From Anaerotignum propionicum DSM 1682 (GTDB taxonomy: Bacteria; Bacillota; Clostridia; Lachnospirales; Anaerotignaceae), in contig NZ_CP014223.1 of the NCBI RefSeq assembly GCF_001561955.1, forward strand, positions 3,038,001 to 3,102,000: 64,000 nt of DNA, read 5' to 3'. The notes under the pieces are model-generated. The model ran no database searches. It was not told the DNA's origin and worked only from the letters and a program-made list of their open reading frames with translations. The position numbers were made by a program, and so were the translations under genes. Shown in pieces: positions 3,207-11,636 of this stretch; within the stretch, counting starts at the first letter, position 1, and each line of letters begins with the position of its first letter.

Positions 3207-4391
3207 TTATTTCAGGTTTGCCTGAATTACTTCTGCCAAGGCTTTAACGCCTTCTATAATTTTCTCATCCGACATACAGGAGTAATTCATGCGGAAACAG
3301 TTATTCTTACCACCATTGGGGAAAAAGCTTCCCCCGGGAACATAAGCAACTTTCTTCTCCAAACACTGCAAAGCCATTTCTTTTGTATCAATATAATCAG
3401 GAAGCTCAACCCATGTAAACAAACCACCATCAGGATATGTAAACTTGGCCTCTTTGGGGAAGTATTCCTTCATGGCCTTCATCATCACGTCCCGTCTGTG
3501 CTTGTATACTTCACGAATCTTATTTACATGCTCATCCAAATTATTCATGTCCATATATTTGTTAGCCTGAAGCTGTGTCAAAGTAGAAGTCTGCAAGTCG
3601 GCGCCCTGCTTCATGGTATTAAATTTTGAAAGGATCTCGTCTTTAGCACAAACCCAGCCCAAACGGAATCCGGGAACCATAATTTTAGATAATGTACCCA
3701 GATAAACCACAACCCCCTTTGTATCCAAAGACTTTAATGCCGGCATAGTATCGTTTTCAAAGCGCAGCTCCCCATAAGGATTATCCTCGATGACAGGAAC
3801 TTCATATTTATTTACAATCTCCATGAATTTTGTTCTTCTCTCCAAAGACCAAGTACGTCCTGTGGGATTCTGGAAATCAGGAATCACATAAATCATCTTC
3901 ACATTTTCTGTGGTAGCAAGAACCTTCTCCAATTCCTCCATCACCATACCGCCATCATCCGTGGGCACTTCAATAAACGTAGGTTCACAAGCCTTAAAAG
4001 CATTGATTGCACCTAAGTAAGAAGGGCTTTCCACCAAAATCACGTCGCCCTTATCAATAAAAACTCTTGCGGCAAAATCAAGTCCCTGCTGAGAACCACT
4101 GGTAATTAAAACCTGTTCAGGCGTGGCATGAATATTATTTTTTACTGCCATTCTTTCCACAATTTTCTCTCTTAGCTGGGGCAAGCCTTCGGTAGAGGAA
4201 TATTGACAAGCAATTGTACCCATTTCCTCCATGACCGCAAGACCAGCCTGCTTCAACGCTTCTACTGGAAACAACTCCGGTGCGGGCAACCCGCCTGCAA
4301 AAGAAATAATATCGGGTCTGGCAATGAGTCTTAAAAGATCTCCAATATCCGAACTATCCAAAAGGTCTAATCTTTTTGCAAAACGTACCAT
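3207..4391 (-). CDS. PLP-dependent aminotransferase, paralogue of 1486-2670
   Basis: A 394-residue fold-type-I aminotransferase, identical in length to its downstream neighbour and very similar throughout, so the two arose by tandem duplication. The same motifs are present: FAGGLPAPELFP, TSGSQQGLDF, IEDNPYGELRF and GTLSKIMVPGFRLGW with the PLP lysine at 236. The start MVRFAKR (4391) has AGGGG about 10 nt upstream and matches the paralogue. An ATG three codons earlier is too close to that site. It lies divergent from the XRE-cupin/pot operon. Differences between the copies are scattered, which fits divergence in substrate preference rather than decay. The substrate cannot be inferred from sequence alone. 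Confidence 0.91.
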   Translation of the reverse strand: MVRFAKRLDLLDSSDIGDLLRLIARPDIISFAGGLPAPELFPVEALKQAGLAVMEEMGTIACQYSSTEGLPQLREKIVERMAVKNNIHATPEQVLITSGSQQGLDFAARVFIDKGDVILVESPSYLGAINAFKACEPTFIEVPTDDGGMVMEELEKVLATTENVKMIYVIPDFQNPTGRTWSLERRTKFMEIVNKYEVPVIEDNPYGELRFENDTMPALKSLDTKGVVVYLGTLSKIMVPGFRLGWVCAKDEILSKFNTMKQGADLQTSTLTQLQANKYMDMNNLDEHVNKIREVYKHRRDVMMKAMKEYFPKEAKFTYPDGGLFTWVELPDYIDTKEMALQCLEKKVAYVPGGSFFPNGGKNNCFRMNYSCMSDEKIIEGVKALAEVIQANLK

Positions 4392-4907
4392 AAACTTCAT
4401 TCCCCTTTCATTTGTTTTTTTAAACGAACATCTTATGTATTGAAATAAAGACATGTAACTATTAAGCCATAAAAACGCCTTAGTGTCAATGTAATTCAAA
4501 AAAAATTGTACAGCATTAAAAACATTGATACTAGTGATATTCAGGCACTTTCATGACCAAAACTCATGGGAATTTTATGACAAAATAAACCCTACAGATT
4601 ATAGGCTTTATCCTCCTTGGGCAAAACAACAATGACAGGGCATGAAAACAAGAAAAATTTCATCATTTTTTTCTAATAGCACTCAAGCTTATGCTCAATT
4701 ACCCCATTTTTTTGTGTTTTCTTCGTCTTGTTTATAGTAGTGCCCCTTTAAGTTTTGTAATAGTAAACCGTTAGAATTATAGGCAAATTGCAAACACCCA
4801 TATTCTCTTGCTATCAGCGAAGAAACTAAAAAAAATCATAAAAACTTGCAAAATTTATTACATTTTGTCAAAAAGTTTTATATATCGAATTTTTTGTTTT
4901 ATTTTTA
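4392..4907. other. AT-rich divergent intergenic region
   Basis: About 500 nt between the divergent aminotransferase and the pot regulator, with no credible ORF. It must hold the promoter of the aminotransferase, but I cannot place it confidently. No riboswitch signature was recognised. Confidence 0.5.
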
Positions 4908-4980
4908 TTGCAATCCCAACAATATGCTGTATAATAATTGAGGTTTAGTAAAAATAATAGAAAAGTTTAGTAGTGCTAAA
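4908..4980 (+). promoter_or_regulatory. Promoter and candidate autoregulatory repeats of the XRE-cupin/pot operon
   Basis: TTGCAA (4908-4913) and a perfect TATAAT (4930-4935) are separated by 16 nt. Just downstream are two direct copies of GTTTAGTA (4943-4950 and 4965-4972), 22 bp apart, or two helical turns. The second also forms the inverted repeat TTTAG-tagtg-CTAAA (4966-4980). Position at and after the start site fits an operator for the regulator encoded next, which is an inference. Confidence 0.6.
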
Positions 4981-5000
4981 TATGATAGGAGTTGTTCAGC

Positions 5001-5534
5001 ATGGATATCGGACATAAAATCAAACAGCTTCGTGTGCAAAAAGGTCTGACTTTAGAAGAGTTGGCAAGCCGCAGCGAGTTGACAAAAGGTTTCCTGTCGC
5101 AGATGGAAAGAAATTTGACGTCTCCTTCCATTGCAACTTTAAATGATATTGTTGAAGCCTTAGGCACCACTTTAGCCGAATTTTTTAAAGAGGAAAAAAA
5201 AGAAAAATTGGTTTTTCATAAAAAGGATTTTTTCGTAGATGAAAGAGGGCATTATACCATCCACTGGATTGTACCCAATACGCAAAAAAACGAAATGGAA
5301 CCCATTCTCTTAGAATTACCCCAAGGGGGAGAATCCTTTCAAATGGATCCTCACAGTGGTGAAGAATTCGGTTATGTTCTTGAGGGCAGCATTACCCTTG
5401 AGTGTGGTGATGAAAGCTTTATTGTACACAAAGGAGAAACCTTCTACCTTTTAGGTAAAACAAGCCACTTGTTAAGAAACGACAAAAAAACGACGGCAAA
5501 AGTTCTGTGGATTTCCACGCCGCCGTTATTCTGA
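5001..5534 (+). CDS. XRE-family regulator with C-terminal cupin domain (PuuR-like)
   Basis: A 177-residue transcription regulator. Residues 1-60 form an HTH_3 DNA-binding domain (LTLEELASRSELTKGFLSQM is the helix-turn-helix) and residues about 105-170 a cupin_2 ligand-binding barrel (GEEFGYVLEGSITL, then GETFYLLG). This architecture is that of PuuR-type regulators, often tied to polyamine genes. Its position 17 nt before potA supports control of polyamine uptake, possibly with a polyamine as ligand. The ATG at 5001 is chosen for the GGAG 9 nt upstream. The direct repeats at 4943-4972 are candidate operator sites. Confidence 0.9.
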   Translation: MDIGHKIKQLRVQKGLTLEELASRSELTKGFLSQMERNLTSPSIATLNDIVEALGTTLAEFFKEEKKEKLVFHKKDFFVDERGHYTIHWIVPNTQKNEMEPILLELPQGGESFQMDPHSGEEFGYVLEGSITLECGDESFIVHKGETFYLLGKTSHLLRNDKKTTAKVLWISTPPLF

Positions 5535-5551
5535 TATGTTAGGAGGCAGAC

Positions 5552-7120
5552 ATGAAAAAGCTTATACAGTTTAAAAATATTGTCAAAGATTTTGACGGTA
5601 AATTGGTTTTAAAGGGTATCAATTTGGATATCTATGAGAACGAATTCGTTACACTCCTTGGCCCCAGCGGTTGTGGCAAAACAACCCTTCTGCGTATTTT
5701 GGGTGGATTTTTAACGCAAAATGAGGGAGAAGTGCTTTTTGATGGGGAAGAAATTACAAAAGTACCTCCATATAAAAGGGAAATCAACACAGTATTTCAA
5801 AAGTACGCCTTGTTTCCTCACATGAATGTTTATAACAACATTGCCTTTGGCCTGAAAATTAAAAAAGAGCCCAAAGATATTATAGAGCAAAAGGTGAAGC
5901 GTATGCTCAAGCTGGTAAACCTTGAGGAATATGCAGACCGAAACGTTACCGAAATGAGCGGTGGTCAGCAGCAGCGTGTTGCTATAGCCCGTGCCTTGGT
6001 AAATGAACCAAACGTACTTCTTTTGGATGAGCCTTTGGGTGCGCTGGATTTAAAGCTCCGTAAAGAAATGCAGCAAGAATTGAAGAAAATTCAGCAAGAA
6101 GTAGGCATCACCTTCATCTATGTTACCCATGATCAAGAAGAGGCCCTTACCATGTCCGATAAGATTGTGGTCATGAAGGATGGAGAAATTCAGCAAATCG
6201 GTTCCCCCACAGATATCTATAATGAGCCTGTCAATCAATACGTTGCCAACTTTATTGGCGAAAGCAATATCATAGATGGGGTTATGCTAGAGGACTACCT
6301 TGTTATGTTTGAGGATAAAAAATTCAAATGCGTGGATTTTGGCTTTGCATCAGGTGAAAAAGTAGATGTTGTCATCCGCCCAGAAGATTTGGATATTGTC
6401 CCTAGGGCAGATGGCAAGCTAAAGGGCATTGTAAAATCTGTGTTATTTAAAGGGGTACATTACGAAACCATTGTAGAAACAAAAGTAGGTACTTCTATTA
6501 CCGTAAAAATGATGGTTTCCGATGACCGTCCTGTTTATAACGAAAGTGCCAACGAGAAAATTTCTGCCAACGATTTTTATTTGGATATGGAAGACGTGGA
6601 AACCTTAGACGAGGGTACCATTGTTGCCCGTGCAGATGCCCAGGCGTGGAATCCTGAAACGGATGAATACATCTCCATTAAGGAAATCAGTTATTCTATA
6701 AAAAAAGAAAACGGCAGCTATCCAGTAACCTTCTCCACCGCCGCAGGCACCTCTGTTACGGTAAATATGATTGTGAAAGATGAAAACCGTATCGCAAACA
6801 AAGAATATCAAGAAGAAATCTTTGCAGTAAATTTCTTTAAAAAGGCGGATGAGATTCATGAATCCATTGCCTTGGAAACAGATTTGAAAACTTGGGCAAA
6901 TGCCTCCGCTTGGAGCCTAGAGGATGGTACTTCCGTTGAAATTACCAATGTAAAATATGATTTTGACCCAGAAACCCTAACCCCTGGCGTTTATGAGGTT
7001 ACCTTTGCCACAGAAGGCTATGAGTATAAAGTTGATACCACCGACCGCTATGAAATTGGCAACGAGGTAGGGCTGATTTTCCAGCCTGAGGACATTCATA
7101 TTATGTCAAAGCAAAACTGA
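5552..7120 (+). CDS. potA: Spermidine/putrescine ABC transporter ATPase PotA with a TOBE-domain insertion
   Basis: ATP-binding subunit of the polyamine importer. Residues 1-240 are a standard ABC domain: Walker A GPSGCGKT (37-44), signature MSGGQQQR (135-142), Walker B VLLLDE (155-160), switch His193. At 522 residues it is about 150-170 longer than usual PotA proteins. The extra length lies inside the C-terminal regulatory TOBE domain: its first strands (about 289-313) and last strands (about 489-519, ending FQPEDIHIM) are separated by two tandem repeats of about 90 residues (about 312-400 and 399-490). Each repeat begins GTSxTVxMxV and contains an xAxAWxxE core. The repeats look like beta-sandwich modules more typical of surface proteins. 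Start ATG with AGGAGG upstream. First gene of potABCD. Confidence 0.94.
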
Positions 7121-7134
7121 AGGGAGGGTGTTCA

Positions 7135-7977
7135 GTGAAACAATTTAGAAACATGGCACTGCCCTATATTGTTTGGATGGGAGCTATGATTGTGGTTCCC
7201 ATGCTGTTGATTCTCCTTTATGCCTTTACCGATAAAGGAAATGACGTGGCAACCATACGCTTTTCACTAGAAAACTTTGCCCGTTTTTTCAGTGATACCG
7301 TATTTATGAGTGTTTTGAAACGCTCCTTGTATATTGCAATCATTACAACAGTGATTTGTATTTTGTTTGGCTATCCCATTGCATATGTCATTGCCACCAG
7401 AAGTGAAAAAAGCAAACTGTTTTGGATCCTTTTGATTACCCTGCCCACATGGATTAATATGCTGGTGCGTACTTACGCATGGATGGGCATTTTGCAGGAT
7501 GAAGGAATCATCAATCGAATGCTGGGCTTTTTGGGAATCGGCCCTGTCTCTATGATTCACACAAGCTTCGCCGTTGTTTTGGGTATGGTCTATAACTTCA
7601 TTCCCTTTATGATTCTGCAAATATATACTGCGTTGACTAAAATGGATAAAAGCTATTTGGAGGCGGCTAGCGACCTTGGTGCCAATGCCATACAATCCTT
7701 TTTAAGGGTGACTTTGCCCCTTTCCATCCCTGGGGTAATCAGCGGCATTACACTGGTGTTCTTGCCAGCGGTATCCAGCTTCTTCATTCCCAAGCTTTTG
7801 GGCGGCGGACAGTATGTTTTAATTGGTAATGTTATTGAAACTGAATTTTTAACTTCGGGAGACTGGAACTTTGGTAGTGCCATTTCCCTAGCAATGGCAG
7901 CCATTATCATGTTTTCCATGTATATTACAAAAAAGGTTGATAAAGACCCTGCCGCTAACGGAAGGGAGGATAACTAA
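7135..7977 (+). CDS. potB: Spermidine/putrescine ABC transporter permease PotB
   Basis: A 280-residue inner-membrane permease with about six membrane segments and the BPD_transp_1 EAA loop (YLEAASDLGANAIQSFLRVT at about residues 178-197), which docks on PotA. The GTG start at 7135 is supported by GGGAGG 7-8 nt upstream and a 14-nt gap from potA. It ends directly against potC (the potC ATG is the next base), so translation is probably coupled. With PotC it forms the channel for polyamine import. Confidence 0.95.
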   Translation: MKQFRNMALPYIVWMGAMIVVPMLLILLYAFTDKGNDVATIRFSLENFARFFSDTVFMSVLKRSLYIAIITTVICILFGYPIAYVIATRSEKSKLFWILLITLPTWINMLVRTYAWMGILQDEGIINRMLGFLGIGPVSMIHTSFAVVLGMVYNFIPFMILQIYTALTKMDKSYLEAASDLGANAIQSFLRVTLPLSIPGVISGITLVFLPAVSSFFIPKLLGGGQYVLIGNVIETEFLTSGDWNFGSAISLAMAAIIMFSMYITKKVDKDPAANGREDN

Positions 7978-8775
7978 ATGGAAAAGAAAAAAAGACGCCT
8001 GTTTTCTAAAATTTTGTTGGGCTTAACAGCGGTTTTCTTCTATGTACCTATTTTGTATATTATTTTGTTTTCCTTCAATAGCTCTCGATCCCTAACAAAG
8101 TTTGAAGGATTCTCCCTACGCTGGTACGAGAAAATGTTTGCAGACTCCACCATGATGCAGTCTGTGGCTTATACGGTCATCATTGCACTTTTAGCCACCA
8201 TTGTTTCCACAATTGTGGGCACACTAACGGCAATCGGCTTATCAAAATCGAAAAAGATAATGAAAGGCATTGTAGAACAAGTGAATAACTTACCCATTCT
8301 GAATCCGGAAATTGTAACGGGTATTGGTTTATTAATGTTTTTCAGCGCCTTAGGGGTAAGAAAAGGTTTTTTAACCCTGCTTCTTGCTCATATCATGTTT
8401 TGCATTCCTTACGTAATTCTCAGCGTAACGCCAAAGCTGCGTTCTCTTGATCCAAATTTGGCGGATGCCGCACTAGACCTTGGCGCAACGCCCATGCAGG
8501 CTTTGTGGAAGGTCATTGTTCCTCAAATTAGACCGGGCATTATCTCCGGCGCACTGATTGCCTTTACCATGTCCTTTGATGATTTCATCATCTCCTACTT
8601 TGTAACAGGCAACGGCGTAAACAATATTTCTATTTTAGTCTATACCATGAGCAAACGTGTGAATCCGTCCATCAACGCCTTAAGCACCTTGGTTATTCTG
8701 TTGATTACGGTGGCGTTATTCATTGTAAATATTATCCCTATTCTAAAAGAAAAGAAAGGAAGTAAACTGACATGA
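7978..8775 (+). CDS. potC: Spermidine/putrescine ABC transporter permease PotC
   Basis: A 265-residue permease with an N-terminal membrane segment (about 10-32), five more hydrophobic segments, and the EAA-type loop (LADAALDLGATPMQALWKVI, about residues 161-180). The motif FSFNSSRSLTKFEGFSLRWY after the first segment is typical of PotC/YdcV proteins. It begins immediately after the potB stop and overlaps potD by 4 nt (ATGA). Partner of PotB in the polyamine importer. Confidence 0.95.
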   Translation: MEKKKRRLFSKILLGLTAVFFYVPILYIILFSFNSSRSLTKFEGFSLRWYEKMFADSTMMQSVAYTVIIALLATIVSTIVGTLTAIGLSKSKKIMKGIVEQVNNLPILNPEIVTGIGLLMFFSALGVRKGFLTLLLAHIMFCIPYVILSVTPKLRSLDPNLADAALDLGATPMQALWKVIVPQIRPGIISGALIAFTMSFDDFIISYFVTGNGVNNISILVYTMSKRVNPSINALSTLVILLITVALFIVNIIPILKEKKGSKLT

Positions 8776-9848
8776 AAAAAATGATTGCATTGGCTGTTAG
8801 TGGAGCATTGTTGCTGTCCGGCTGTGGCGGTGGTTCTTCTGCTTCTGACGCGGCGGAAAAATATGGCTCTTCCACATTAAAGCTCTATAACTGGGGGGAA
8901 TATATGGGTGCAAACCTGATTTCCGACTTCGAGAAAGAATATGGCGTAAAGGTGATTGTGGAATACTTTGATTCCAACGAAATGATGTACACAAAATTGC
9001 AGGCAGGTGACGCTTATGATGTCCTTGTGCCCTCTGACTATATGATTGAACGTTTGATTAAGGAAAACATGCTGCAAAAACTGGATCTAACCAAGATTCC
9101 AAATATCTCAAATTTGGCTGAAGGCGTGAAGCATCTGCCCTATGACCCCGATAATTCTTACTCTGTGCCATATTTCTGGGGTAACGTGGGAATTGTTTAT
9201 AACCACAATAACGTAAAAGCCGCAGACGTGGAAAAACTGGGCTATAATATCCTTCAGGATACCACCTATAAAGGACGCATCTATGTATATGACTCCGAGC
9301 GTGATTCCTTTATGATGGCATTGAAGGCATTGGGCTATTCCATGAATACAGAGAACGAAAGCGAGGTTCAAGAGGCTTATAACTGGCTCCTTCAAATGAA
9401 CGATACCATGGATCCCGCTTATGTTACCGATGAAGTAATCGACGGCATGATTAATGGAAATAAAGATATTGCCGTTGTTTATAGTGGTGACGCCGCAACT
9501 ATTTTGAACGAAAACGAAGATATGAGCTTTTTTCTACCTACAGAGGGCACAAACCTGTGGAGCGATTCCATGGTTATTCCTGCTAACGCAGAAAATCCCC
9601 TCTTGGCTCATGAATTCATTAACTATGTATTAACCCATGACGCTTCCTACGATAACTCCGAAACTGTGGGATACCCTTCTTCTAACCAAGAGGTGTTGGA
9701 TGAAATGTCTGGCTCTGGTGGAATTTATGCAGAAAATGAAGCATATCTGCCCAGAACAGATTATGCCAAGGACGAAGTATTTAAAGATAATCCTGTTTTA
9801 AAGCAGAAACTTGCTGAGCTTTGGATTAAAGTAAAGGCTTCTCACTAA
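8772..9848 (+). CDS. potD: Polyamine ABC transporter substrate-binding lipoprotein PotD
   Basis: A 358-residue extracellular binding protein. The signal peptide ends in the lipobox LLLSGC, so Cys18 is lipid-anchored outside the membrane, as usual in Gram-positive bacteria. The mature part begins with the PotD/F hallmark LKLYNWGEYMG and continues through VPSDYMIERL, YSVPYFWGNVGIVYN and VYSGDAATIL. It binds spermidine or putrescine and delivers it to PotBC. The start overlaps potC (ATGA). The operon ends at the terminator at 9861-9900. Confidence 0.95.
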   Translation: MKKMIALAVSGALLLSGCGGGSSASDAAEKYGSSTLKLYNWGEYMGANLISDFEKEYGVKVIVEYFDSNEMMYTKLQAGDAYDVLVPSDYMIERLIKENMLQKLDLTKIPNISNLAEGVKHLPYDPDNSYSVPYFWGNVGIVYNHNNVKAADVEKLGYNILQDTTYKGRIYVYDSERDSFMMALKALGYSMNTENESEVQEAYNWLLQMNDTMDPAYVTDEVIDGMINGNKDIAVVYSGDAATILNENEDMSFFLPTEGTNLWSDSMVIPANAENPLLAHEFINYVLTHDASYDNSETVGYPSSNQEVLDEMSGSGGIYAENEAYLPRTDYAKDEVFKDNPVLKQKLAELWIKVKASH

Positions 9849-10145: not shown

Positions 10146-10454
10146 GTTCAAACTCCAATCTATTTAAGAATAATAATTATTTCAATATCATTTTGCTCAA
10201 TTTCAGAAAACAAGCCCCTCATATAAGAAATATTAATAAAATACCAACTAGAAAAGCGATATTCAACTTTATTCCAATATTTTCCATTCTAGTATCCTTT
10301 CTATAATTTGTCAATATCTGTATGTTTCTTGTTTTTTCCTCTTTACTTATAATTTCATTAAGAACCAGTACCTTTTTTCTATGTGATTATTTTGACACTG
10401 TCGTAACAAGGAAGTATAATGGATTTTAGATTACATTTTGAAAAGGATAATACC
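10146..10454. other. Intergenic region with a possible micro-ORF
   Basis: There is no clear gene. On the minus strand 10219-10287 could encode a 22-residue hydrophobic peptide (MENIGIK then a run of aliphatic residues) with GGAT 8 nt upstream. This is too little to call. On the plus strand an ATG at 10419 is in frame with the LRR gene but lacks a ribosome binding site. Confidence 0.3.
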
Positions 10455-11636
10455 ATGAAGCCAACAAAAAAGGTTATATTATATTATAAAGTCTCTGCCA
10501 AGGGCGTTACCATCTTGGGCATCAAGGGCAGAGCAAGCCAACTGCATATTCCGGAAACTATTGATGATATGCCTGTGGTGGCCATTGAAGATTTCGCTTT
10601 TTCCATTGAAACGGAGCAACCTCAGCTAGAGGAAGAAAACTTGGGAGAGATATTTCTTTGCTTATCAGCAGACAAACGCACTGCCGTTCCCAAAGAAGAT
10701 GATGGAGATGCCATCTTACGTATCATCCTTCCTGATACTATCCGCCGTATTGGTGCTTATGCCTTCTCAGGCTGTAATGCCTTGGGTTCTATTGTTCTGC
10801 CTGAAGGGTTGGAGGAAATCGCCCCCTATACCTTTTCCGGATGTTCCGCCTTAGAGGCTTTGACACTGCCCCAAAGTATACAAAAAATAGGTAGCTATGC
10901 TTTCTTCGATTGTCATAGTCTCAAGGCTCTTACCATCCCAGACAAGGTAACTGCCATAGAGCGCTATGCATTTTATAATTGCAGATCCCTTTACAAAATC
11001 AATATACCGAAAAATACAGAGCATCTGGAAACAGGCTTATTTTTGAATTGTGACAGCCTTTACGATATTTATTTCGGACAATGCAAGCATATTTCCGACT
11101 TAATCGCAGTTCTAAACCATGAGCTGTTGCTTACCATAGATTTTCCCGATGCCAGAGCGAAATTGCTCATCCCCGATTTTCAATATGAATACATCGAGGA
11201 TACCCCTGCACGGCAGTTTCATCAGGTAAATTACGGCACAGGCCATTTATTTCGCCAATGCATTCGCAATTCTGACATTGATTTTCGCAGATACGACGAA
11301 CTGTTTTATCTTACTCGAAGGGAAGATGCGGCAGTTTTGGTACTGCTTTTGGCGGTATATCGTCTGTCCTATCCCTACCGCCTGGTAGCTGAACGTAGGG
11401 AAACCTATCTTTCCTATGTGCGAGAGCATTTGCTGTTTGCGGCGGATTATTATATCCAAAACAATGATCTGGAGGTTCTGCGTCAATTCGCCCAATGGGG
11501 ACTTTACACCAATGAGGCTTTGCCAAAAATGATAGAAATGGCACAAAAAAAAGGAAAAACTGAAATTCTTAGCTTTCTTATGGATTACCAACATAAAAAA
11601 AGGAATCCCATAAAGAAAAAAAGCTTTGATTTGTAA
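10455..11636 (+). CDS. Leucine-rich repeat (BspA/LRR_5) protein, first gene of LRR-VWA-MoxR operon
   Basis: A 393-residue protein without a signal peptide. After a short N-terminal beta region come four consecutive LRR_5 units of about 23 residues (IRRIGAYAFSGCNALGSIVL and three similar units, about 95-200). The rest (about 230-390) is mostly alpha-helical and ends in an ankyrin-like segment (LEVLRQFAQWGLY, KGKTEILSFLMDY) with a basic tail. Start ATG 10455 follows AGGA at 8 nt; an upstream ATG (10419) lacks one. It overlaps the region before the next gene, whose ATG is 10 nt past this stop. LRR units suggest a protein-binding adaptor, which is inference; the cytoplasmic location follows from the missing signal. 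Confidence 0.87.
   Translation: MKPTKKVILYYKVSAKGVTILGIKGRASQLHIPETIDDMPVVAIEDFAFSIETEQPQLEEENLGEIFLCLSADKRTAVPKEDDGDAILRIILPDTIRRIGAYAFSGCNALGSIVLPEGLEEIAPYTFSGCSALEALTLPQSIQKIGSYAFFDCHSLKALTIPDKVTAIERYAFYNCRSLYKINIPKNTEHLETGLFLNCDSLYDIYFGQCKHISDLIAVLNHELLLTIDFPDARAKLLIPDFQYEYIEDTPARQFHQVNYGTGHLFRQCIRNSDIDFRRYDELFYLTRREDAAVLVLLLAVYRLSYPYRLVAERRETYLSYVREHLLFAADYYIQNNDLEVLRQFAQWGLYTNEALPKMIEMAQKKGKTEILSFLMDYQHKKRNPIKKKSFDL

Follow-up and report, generated by a model that had tools for sequence, protein, structure and literature searches.

Why does the ATPase of a polyamine importer carry 177 additional residues within its regulatory domain, where did they come from, and what might they do? The question is raised by a potA gene in a 64,000-nucleotide stretch of DNA (referred to as the window) from the genome of Anaerotignum propionicum DSM 1682, which comprises 3.12 Mb in one contig. 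According to a study on E. coli PotABC, PotA is the cytosolic subunit, and the shut-off of the transporter by its own substrate is still an open question (PMC11414716). A PotA family with and without the 177-residue extension, in the same operon and gene order, provides ready-made pairs for feedback tests.

The potA gene and its operon

The potA open reading frame lies at window positions 5552–7120 of the plus strand, as do all window features with coordinates in this and the next section; it starts with ATG and encodes 522 residues, with no internal stop. The product exceeds the cut-offs of two curated models (TIGR01187, 389.9 against 355.6 bits; NF043075, 564 against 550 bits) and falls below that of the PRK09452 PotA model (433.6 against 482). 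Pfam recognizes ABC_tran and TOBE_2. The nucleotide-binding domain (NBD) comprises residues 1–238 (5552–6265), with ABC_tran at residues 20–162 (E 9e-39) and the NCBIfam PotA models as evidence. The TOBE regulatory domain follows in two parts, residues 239–310 (6266–6481) and residues 488–519 (7013–7108). The first is marked by TOBE_2, whose best stretch is residues 273–324, and by alignment with insert-free PotAs; the second by the same alignment and by a structure alignment extending to model residue 520.

A gene for a PuuR-like HTH-cupin regulator (4992–5534; NF007408 PuuR, 77 bits, cut-off of 211 not reached) locates 5' of potA, and in many loci the synteny comparison places such a gene 5' of potA, whether long or short. 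The permease genes potB (7135–7977) and potC (7978–8775) and the substrate-binding protein gene potD (8772–9848) are assigned from synteny and from top NCBIfam matches below cut-off: PotB (235 against 348 bits), MMSYN1_0195 (permease part) and PotC, and PotD (208 against 582 bits), respectively. Judged from sequence, the window frame is PotA, the ATPase of a polyamine ABC importer, in one operon with potB, potC and potD. It is 93–95% identical to PotA of A. neopropionicum and of Anaerotignum sp. The NBD, the regulatory domain and the operon resemble those of E. coli PotA (PotABCD; PDB 8y5f, 8zx1). However, the E. coli protein has 378 residues and lacks the insert, whereas the TOBE domain of the window PotA is split by 177 residues.

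We take the family sampled here (f1) to be Anaerotignaceae and its order to be Lachnospirales, and we read the class and phylum samples as Clostridia and Bacillota. Erysipelotrichales is the name that we assume for the order of Holdemania massiliensis (G464).

Two similar units are inserted at a TOBE hairpin

The insert comprises residues 311–487 (window 6482–7012) and locates at a beta-hairpin of the TOBE domain. An insertion at about residues 314–488 had been predicted from the DNA letters; the insertion stands, and its exact span is now refined. In the insert-free PotAs, a sister form whose operon is the same as that of long PotA, ...FKGVHYEIVVET is followed directly by ...IHTTD..VGLxFxPEDIHVM, so that the same TOBE sequence is found on both sides of the junction and the flanking TOBE strands are intact, as had been claimed. 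These sisters have 346–347 residues, mostly 347; the exception, L208, has 339 and an altered tail.

The insert divides into unit 1 (residues 311–399, 6482–6748), which is in a permuted form, and unit 2 (residues 400–487, 6749–7012). The two units share 31% identity along an 88-residue alignment, with an E value of 3e-10 that applies to this one comparison, and each contains an AxAW core, A363-Q-A365-W366 in unit 1 and A451-S-A453-W454 in unit 2. Both the repeat of beta-sandwich-like units and this core had been noticed in the original prediction. The borders of both units draw on the unit-versus-unit alignment, the fold model and comparison with related modules, those of unit 1 also on structure matches.

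The insert can hardly be an artefact, an intein or ordinary TOBE variation, and we found no point in favour of such a reading. An assembly fusion or a frameshift is ruled out because many independent genomes share the insert (44 of the 48 family genomes, own included, and 100 of 148 in Erysipelotrichales), in line with the earlier remark that the frame is intact. Ordinary variation is ruled out by the insert-free TOBE domain of the sister PotAs. As for an intein, the five weak Pfam matches of the insert (E<=10) include no intein or Hint family, and the fold model is Ig-like. The homology of the insert to modules of surface-type proteins, described below, also counts against these readings.

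The units are predicted to adopt an Ig-like fold

Modelled alone, the insert reaches a mean pLDDT of 93.1 and is predicted to form two tandem Ig-like modules. The model of full-length PotA, which the original prediction had called for, aligns to E. coli PotA 8y5f across model residues 2–520 (343 aligned, Z 30.9, rmsd 9.3). Its pLDDT is 81.8 and its pTM 0.45, and because of this pTM the placement of the modules relative to the NBD is undefined.

Foldseek of the insert model against the PDB gave no match at E<=0.001. A second structure comparison retrieved Ig-like surface domains, led by Internalin K (InlK, 4l3a; Z 8.4, rmsd 1.6, 69 aligned) and followed by ZmpB (7jrl, Z 7.8), a chitinase (7.6), Big_3 (2kpn, 6.6), SlpX (7qfj, 6.3) and Rib (6s5x, 4.7). 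These matches cover unit 1 alone (model residues of about 21–101), and 2 of 993 chains reach Z 8. The unit 1 model thus has an Ig-like arrangement in common with Internalin K, Big_3, the ZmpB INT region, SlpX domain II and the Rib domains, but none of these has a sequence match to the PotA modules at the Pfam cut-offs or at E<=0.1 in the PDB. The matches show an arrangement of the predicted fold and not membership of a family, and a shared fold is no evidence of function.

Searches with the insert sequence returned nothing above cut-off in Pfam or NCBIfam and nothing at E<=0.1 among PDB sequences, which agrees with the earlier view that this is not a standard PotA domain. The best Pfam match of the window insert is PKD_4, at 17.0 bits against a gathering cut-off of 27. 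Among 31 relatives of the insert, the best Pfam E value is 0.0007, and PKD_4 appears in 11 members. Scores thus stay below the gathering cut-offs of the named bacterial Ig-like families (PKD_4, SdrD_B and others), and to judge from these searches the module family is one that none of the searched libraries names. No description of such a PotA insert or architecture was found in the literature searched; the original prediction had likewise known of none.

Long PotA is common in two lineages and rare in wider samples

Among 79 genomes of relatives, 49 match the insert. It occurs in 44 of the 48 Anaerotignaceae genomes (own genome included); elsewhere in the order, 2 of 31 genomes have strong matches and 3 have weak ones. 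With the PotA core as query (E<=1e-90), an orthologue is found in exactly these 44 family genomes. In one of them (G008) core and insert lie on two contigs, and in another (G030) the gene is cut at a contig start. Three of the other four have no PotA match, and one has only a 50%-identical paralogue. Three family genomes (G013, G017, G044) carry an additional insert-free PotA paralogue of 52–55% identity. Elsewhere in the order, 17 of 19 PotA-bearing genomes have the short form.

The insert is rare in the class and phylum samples. At E<=0.001 the insert profile matches 3 of 391 genomes of the class sample, one of them the own genome; every matching frame has 525–530 residues, the length of long PotA, which serves as a control for chance. 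In the phylum sample it matches 5 of 398, of which three are PotA-length frames (own included) and two are weak others. A tblastn search of a plasmid collection with the insert gave no match.

Of 148 Erysipelotrichales genomes sampled, 109 match; the full PotA insert is found in 100 of these and only other modules in nine. PotA is present in 141 of the 148 genomes: 100 are long and 41 have frames of 251–384 residues, some of which are truncated or broken (G508, G553, G546). This non-long set includes every one of the nine module-only genomes. The original prediction had proposed a profile search to see whether the insert is conserved in a clade; it is, with the insert in all 44 Anaerotignaceae orthologues found and 100 of 141 Erysipelotrichales PotAs. 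Meanwhile, we notice that potA of Holdemania filiformis (L100:4001-5556) is split into two frames within the insert region, by either a sequencing error or a real break.

Related modules occur in surface-type proteins of Erysipelotrichales

A profile built from 31 inserts was used to collect relatives of the modules. In Breznakia pachnodae, modules occur in very large proteins (frames of 5054, 3401 and 3127 residues; best E 3e-12). One giant Breznakia protein (L120; L121 is another) contains Bact_surface_Ig-like domains (E 4e-61) besides the module. Other large Erysipelotrichales proteins with a module are found at L158, L159 and L162. By eye, the L158 protein has an LPSTG motif; its anchor match scores 18.5 bits and narrowly misses the cut-off of 20. 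At L154–L156, L160, L161 and L163 are 220-residue proteins that combine a single module with a signal peptide and a membrane helix at the C-terminus, signal peptides and helices being read by eye. A module is also found at L157, in a 481-residue frame (L157:1829-3271) that by eye has a charged N-terminal part, one membrane helix and a coiled-coil-like tail. This module is near PotA unit 1 (63.6 bits), and a long PotA is encoded in the same genome (G615).

The PotA insert is almost certainly homologous to these modules (L120, L121, L158, L154–L156 and L161 among them), as sequence scores of up to 63.6 bits indicate. The other family members found thus lie in extracellular-looking proteins, just as the original prediction expected of such modules. 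The PotA modules themselves would not be extracellular, since by sequence they lie within a chain that starts with an NBD, between the two TOBE parts. Whereas the surface-type modules look secreted or anchored, those of PotA sit in an ATPase, are permuted at the hairpin, are doubled and are about twice as acidic.

In the register of the surface proteins, unit 1 would correspond to residues of about 330–410 and unit 2 to about 417–497, with a TOBE strand as the last strand of unit 2. In our reading of the alignments and predicted strands, each PotA unit starts with what is the last module strand in the surface proteins. Both strands of the TOBE hairpin look like those of the module's own terminal hairpin, and we therefore consider that the modules were permuted into the TOBE hairpin.

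A module tree (67 rows, 83 columns, midpoint root) separates 22 PotA units from 45 surface modules by a branch with support 99/91. Its rows derive from 67 surface modules, the domain hits (of 80) that span at least 65 model positions, thinned at 70% to 45, and from both units of 11 of 13 chosen PotA rows; the remaining two were absent from the distinct set, and unit 2 was cut to 74 residues. The PotA units are closer to one another than to any sampled surface module, and the nesting of PotA units among surface modules depends on the midpoint root. By HMM domain scores, surface modules are nearer unit 1 (best 63.6 bits) than unit 2 (26.0 bits). It is likely, on these sequence comparisons, that one module was captured and duplicated later, which the tree fits; alternatively, two neighbouring modules were taken from an unsampled array. 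The exchange likely ran from surface protein to PotA, with the Erysipelotrichales surface-type family as the likely donor.

A probable single gain of the insert and an apparent transfer of the operon

A tree of the 310 pre-insert PotA residues (120 rows, 76 long and 44 short) places the change between long and short at a single point (SH-aLRT 92). This tree is without L082, L100, L105, L110 and L111, which are broken or truncated, without open-ended or partial frames and without same-form near-copies of at least 96.5%. In the synteny comparison, L082, L105 and L111 are labelled short through truncation and L100 through its broken frame. Rooted on far paralogues, the 120-row tree places the long clade within the insert-free Erysipelotrichales PotAs; the paralogues are not one clade, and 42 of 117 inner branches are open. 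After removal of eight long-branch rows (120 to 112) and thinning to 64 (29 long, 35 short), one change is again found, with support 95. No short row falls within the long clade in either tree. PotA very probably gained the insert once.

Forcing together the 31 presumed Lachnospirales rows (17 long, 14 short) costs 103 log-likelihood units (p-AU 3.9e-5), the group having been picked after inspection of the first tree. The trees point to entry of the long operon into Anaerotignaceae from the Erysipelotrichales side, and the resemblance of its other proteins agrees: window PotB, PotC and PotD are 58–69% identical to those of Erysipelotrichales long loci, versus 37–54% to those of other Lachnospirales short loci. 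Thus the family seems, from sequence comparison, to have acquired the long pot operon horizontally. This refines the original prediction, as the long form seems to have arisen within insert-free Erysipelotrichales PotAs and to have reached Anaerotignaceae with the operon. L217, a short Lachnospirales row, is placed beside Erysipelotrichales in the 120-row tree, and short forms may therefore have moved too. In this case one can follow what looks like the single uptake of a surface-protein module into a core cytosolic ATPase, together with the insert-free sisters, the likely donor family and the horizontal spread.

Constraint, charge and conserved residues

The insert is 175–179 residues long in all 94 distinct long PotAs, none of which has one or three units. 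Its two units show dN/dS of 0.017–0.048 (pairs with computable dS among six congeners), compared with 0.027–0.060 for the TOBE part before it, 0.005–0.039 for the part after it and 0.006–0.013 for the NBD, dS being saturated in some cells and throughout L047. Purifying selection acts on the insert as it does on the preceding TOBE part.

Twelve positions are conserved in at least 94% of PotA units and not in surface modules: D345, R360, Q364 and S375 in unit 1, and K430, D433, E437, S438, T443, D444, W448 and D472 in unit 2. A339, F342, A363, A365, G388, Y390 and F394 are conserved in both PotA and surface modules, and much of the conservation of the insert is that of a fold core common to them. 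One may suppose that a surface module landed once in a permissive hairpin, was duplicated and has since been tolerated, with selection for folding and solubility only. The insertion point at a hairpin tip, which leaves the NBD motifs undisturbed, and the shared fold core fit such a passenger. Yet the fixed number of two units, the lack of short rows in the long clade and the PotA-only residues argue against it, and we regard it as unlikely. That the insert seems to have been taken up once and kept suggests a working part.

The window insert has a net charge of −19, and the unit means over the 94 proteins are −10.0 and −11.9. In the surface register, the PotA units average −10.6 and −11.9, versus −4.9 for the 67 surface modules. 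Per residue, however, the insert (−0.107) does not surpass in acidity the regulatory region of short PotAs from Erysipelotrichales (−0.137, 21 proteins), and acidity may therefore be general to the regulatory domain. Among 766 overlapping 177-residue windows from other frames of the window, 16 are at least as acidic. We consider acidity insufficient as proof of polyamine sensing, given short-PotA regions and stretches of other frames that are as acidic or more.

No consistent change of the operon partners accompanies the insert. PotC, PotD and the regulator show no clear change in length. PotB has 260–275 residues in 10 long Erysipelotrichales loci versus 274–297 in 21 short ones; it is not shortened in Anaerotignaceae (277–280, one 179). 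The potC frame has 623–639 residues in a few loci, long as well as short, which suggests potC-potD fusions like the MMSYN1_0195 family.

A possible role in feedback control

E. coli PotABC hydrolyses ATP less actively in the presence of spermidine; the authors suggest that spermidine binds the strongly negative regulatory domain, calling for further investigation (PMC11414716). A review from 2023 covers trans-inhibition through additional domains of ABC ATPases, such as MetN C2 and the C-terminal domain of ModC, regulatory domains that sense the imported substrate (PMC10710835). The likeness to the PotA insert is an analogy only, and these domains are C-terminal whereas the insert lies within TOBE. 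On the basis of the spermidine effect and of trans-inhibition, we favour a regulatory extension.

Because PotABC contains two PotA subunits, the regulatory domains would carry four acidic modules, and these would extend feedback control of the importer. Cytosolic polyamine might bind the modules, or contacts between modules, or between module and NBD, might form across the PotA dimer; either would favour one arrangement of the regulatory domain, inhibited or active, over the other. The original prediction had suggested that the insert might sense an intracellular ligand or partner, and its acidity, purifying selection and PotA-only residues are compatible with that. Its place within the regulatory domain, the single change on the trees, near-constant length, purifying selection, acidic charge, PotA-only residues and the sensor kinases encoded beside some surface-type relatives all speak for regulation. 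Against it, short PotAs in the same operon do without the insert, the operon partners do not change consistently with it, much of the conservation is fold core, and acidity does not exceed that of the short-PotA regulatory region. On balance, we lean slightly towards a regulatory role of some kind, while polyamine is a tentative candidate for the ligand.

A scaffold, in which the modules dock another cytosolic protein or the modules of a second transporter and so place or cluster PotABC without sensing a small molecule, seems doubtful to us. Module relatives do form arrays in large surface-type proteins and occur singly beside sensor kinases, and in unit 2, unlike in surface modules, W448 is invariant and T443-D444 is conserved. 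However, the operon matches that of short potA, a comparison of the six window genes having brought up no additional gene, and a search of the own genome with the insert matched PotA only. Returning to the regulatory extension, we speculate, tentatively, that a surface Ig-like module entered PotA at the TOBE hairpin in Erysipelotrichales and was duplicated there, that it came to act as a brake, either polyamine-responsive or dimer-locking, and that other Bacillota received it with the operon. If true, this would clearly exemplify the recruitment of an extracellular adhesion-type fold as a transporter switch within the cell.

Neighbouring observations

The module protein is encoded directly 3' of a sensor kinase in four loci of two genomes, L154 and L155 (G584) and L156 and L161 (G533), at L154:1559-3635, L155:280-2996, L156:643-3485, and L161:102-2677 and 4184-6272. 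The kinase match is above cut-off in L154 only. A response regulator is Pfam-confirmed in L155 and, on the opposite strand, in L156, and looks present in L161. Module protein, kinase and regulator possibly form a three-part system for surface sensing, in which the module protein would be an undescribed Ig-like accessory. LPXTG-type surface proteins adjoin the L154 and L156 loci.

In the window, a 405-residue frame 3' of the pot operon (10419–11636) shows, by eye, leucine-rich-type repeats and no evident signal peptide. The draft genome of A. neopropionicum contains two identical 9,566-base copies of the pot region (L039 and L040) about 154 kb apart on one contig, representing either a recent duplication or an assembly artefact.
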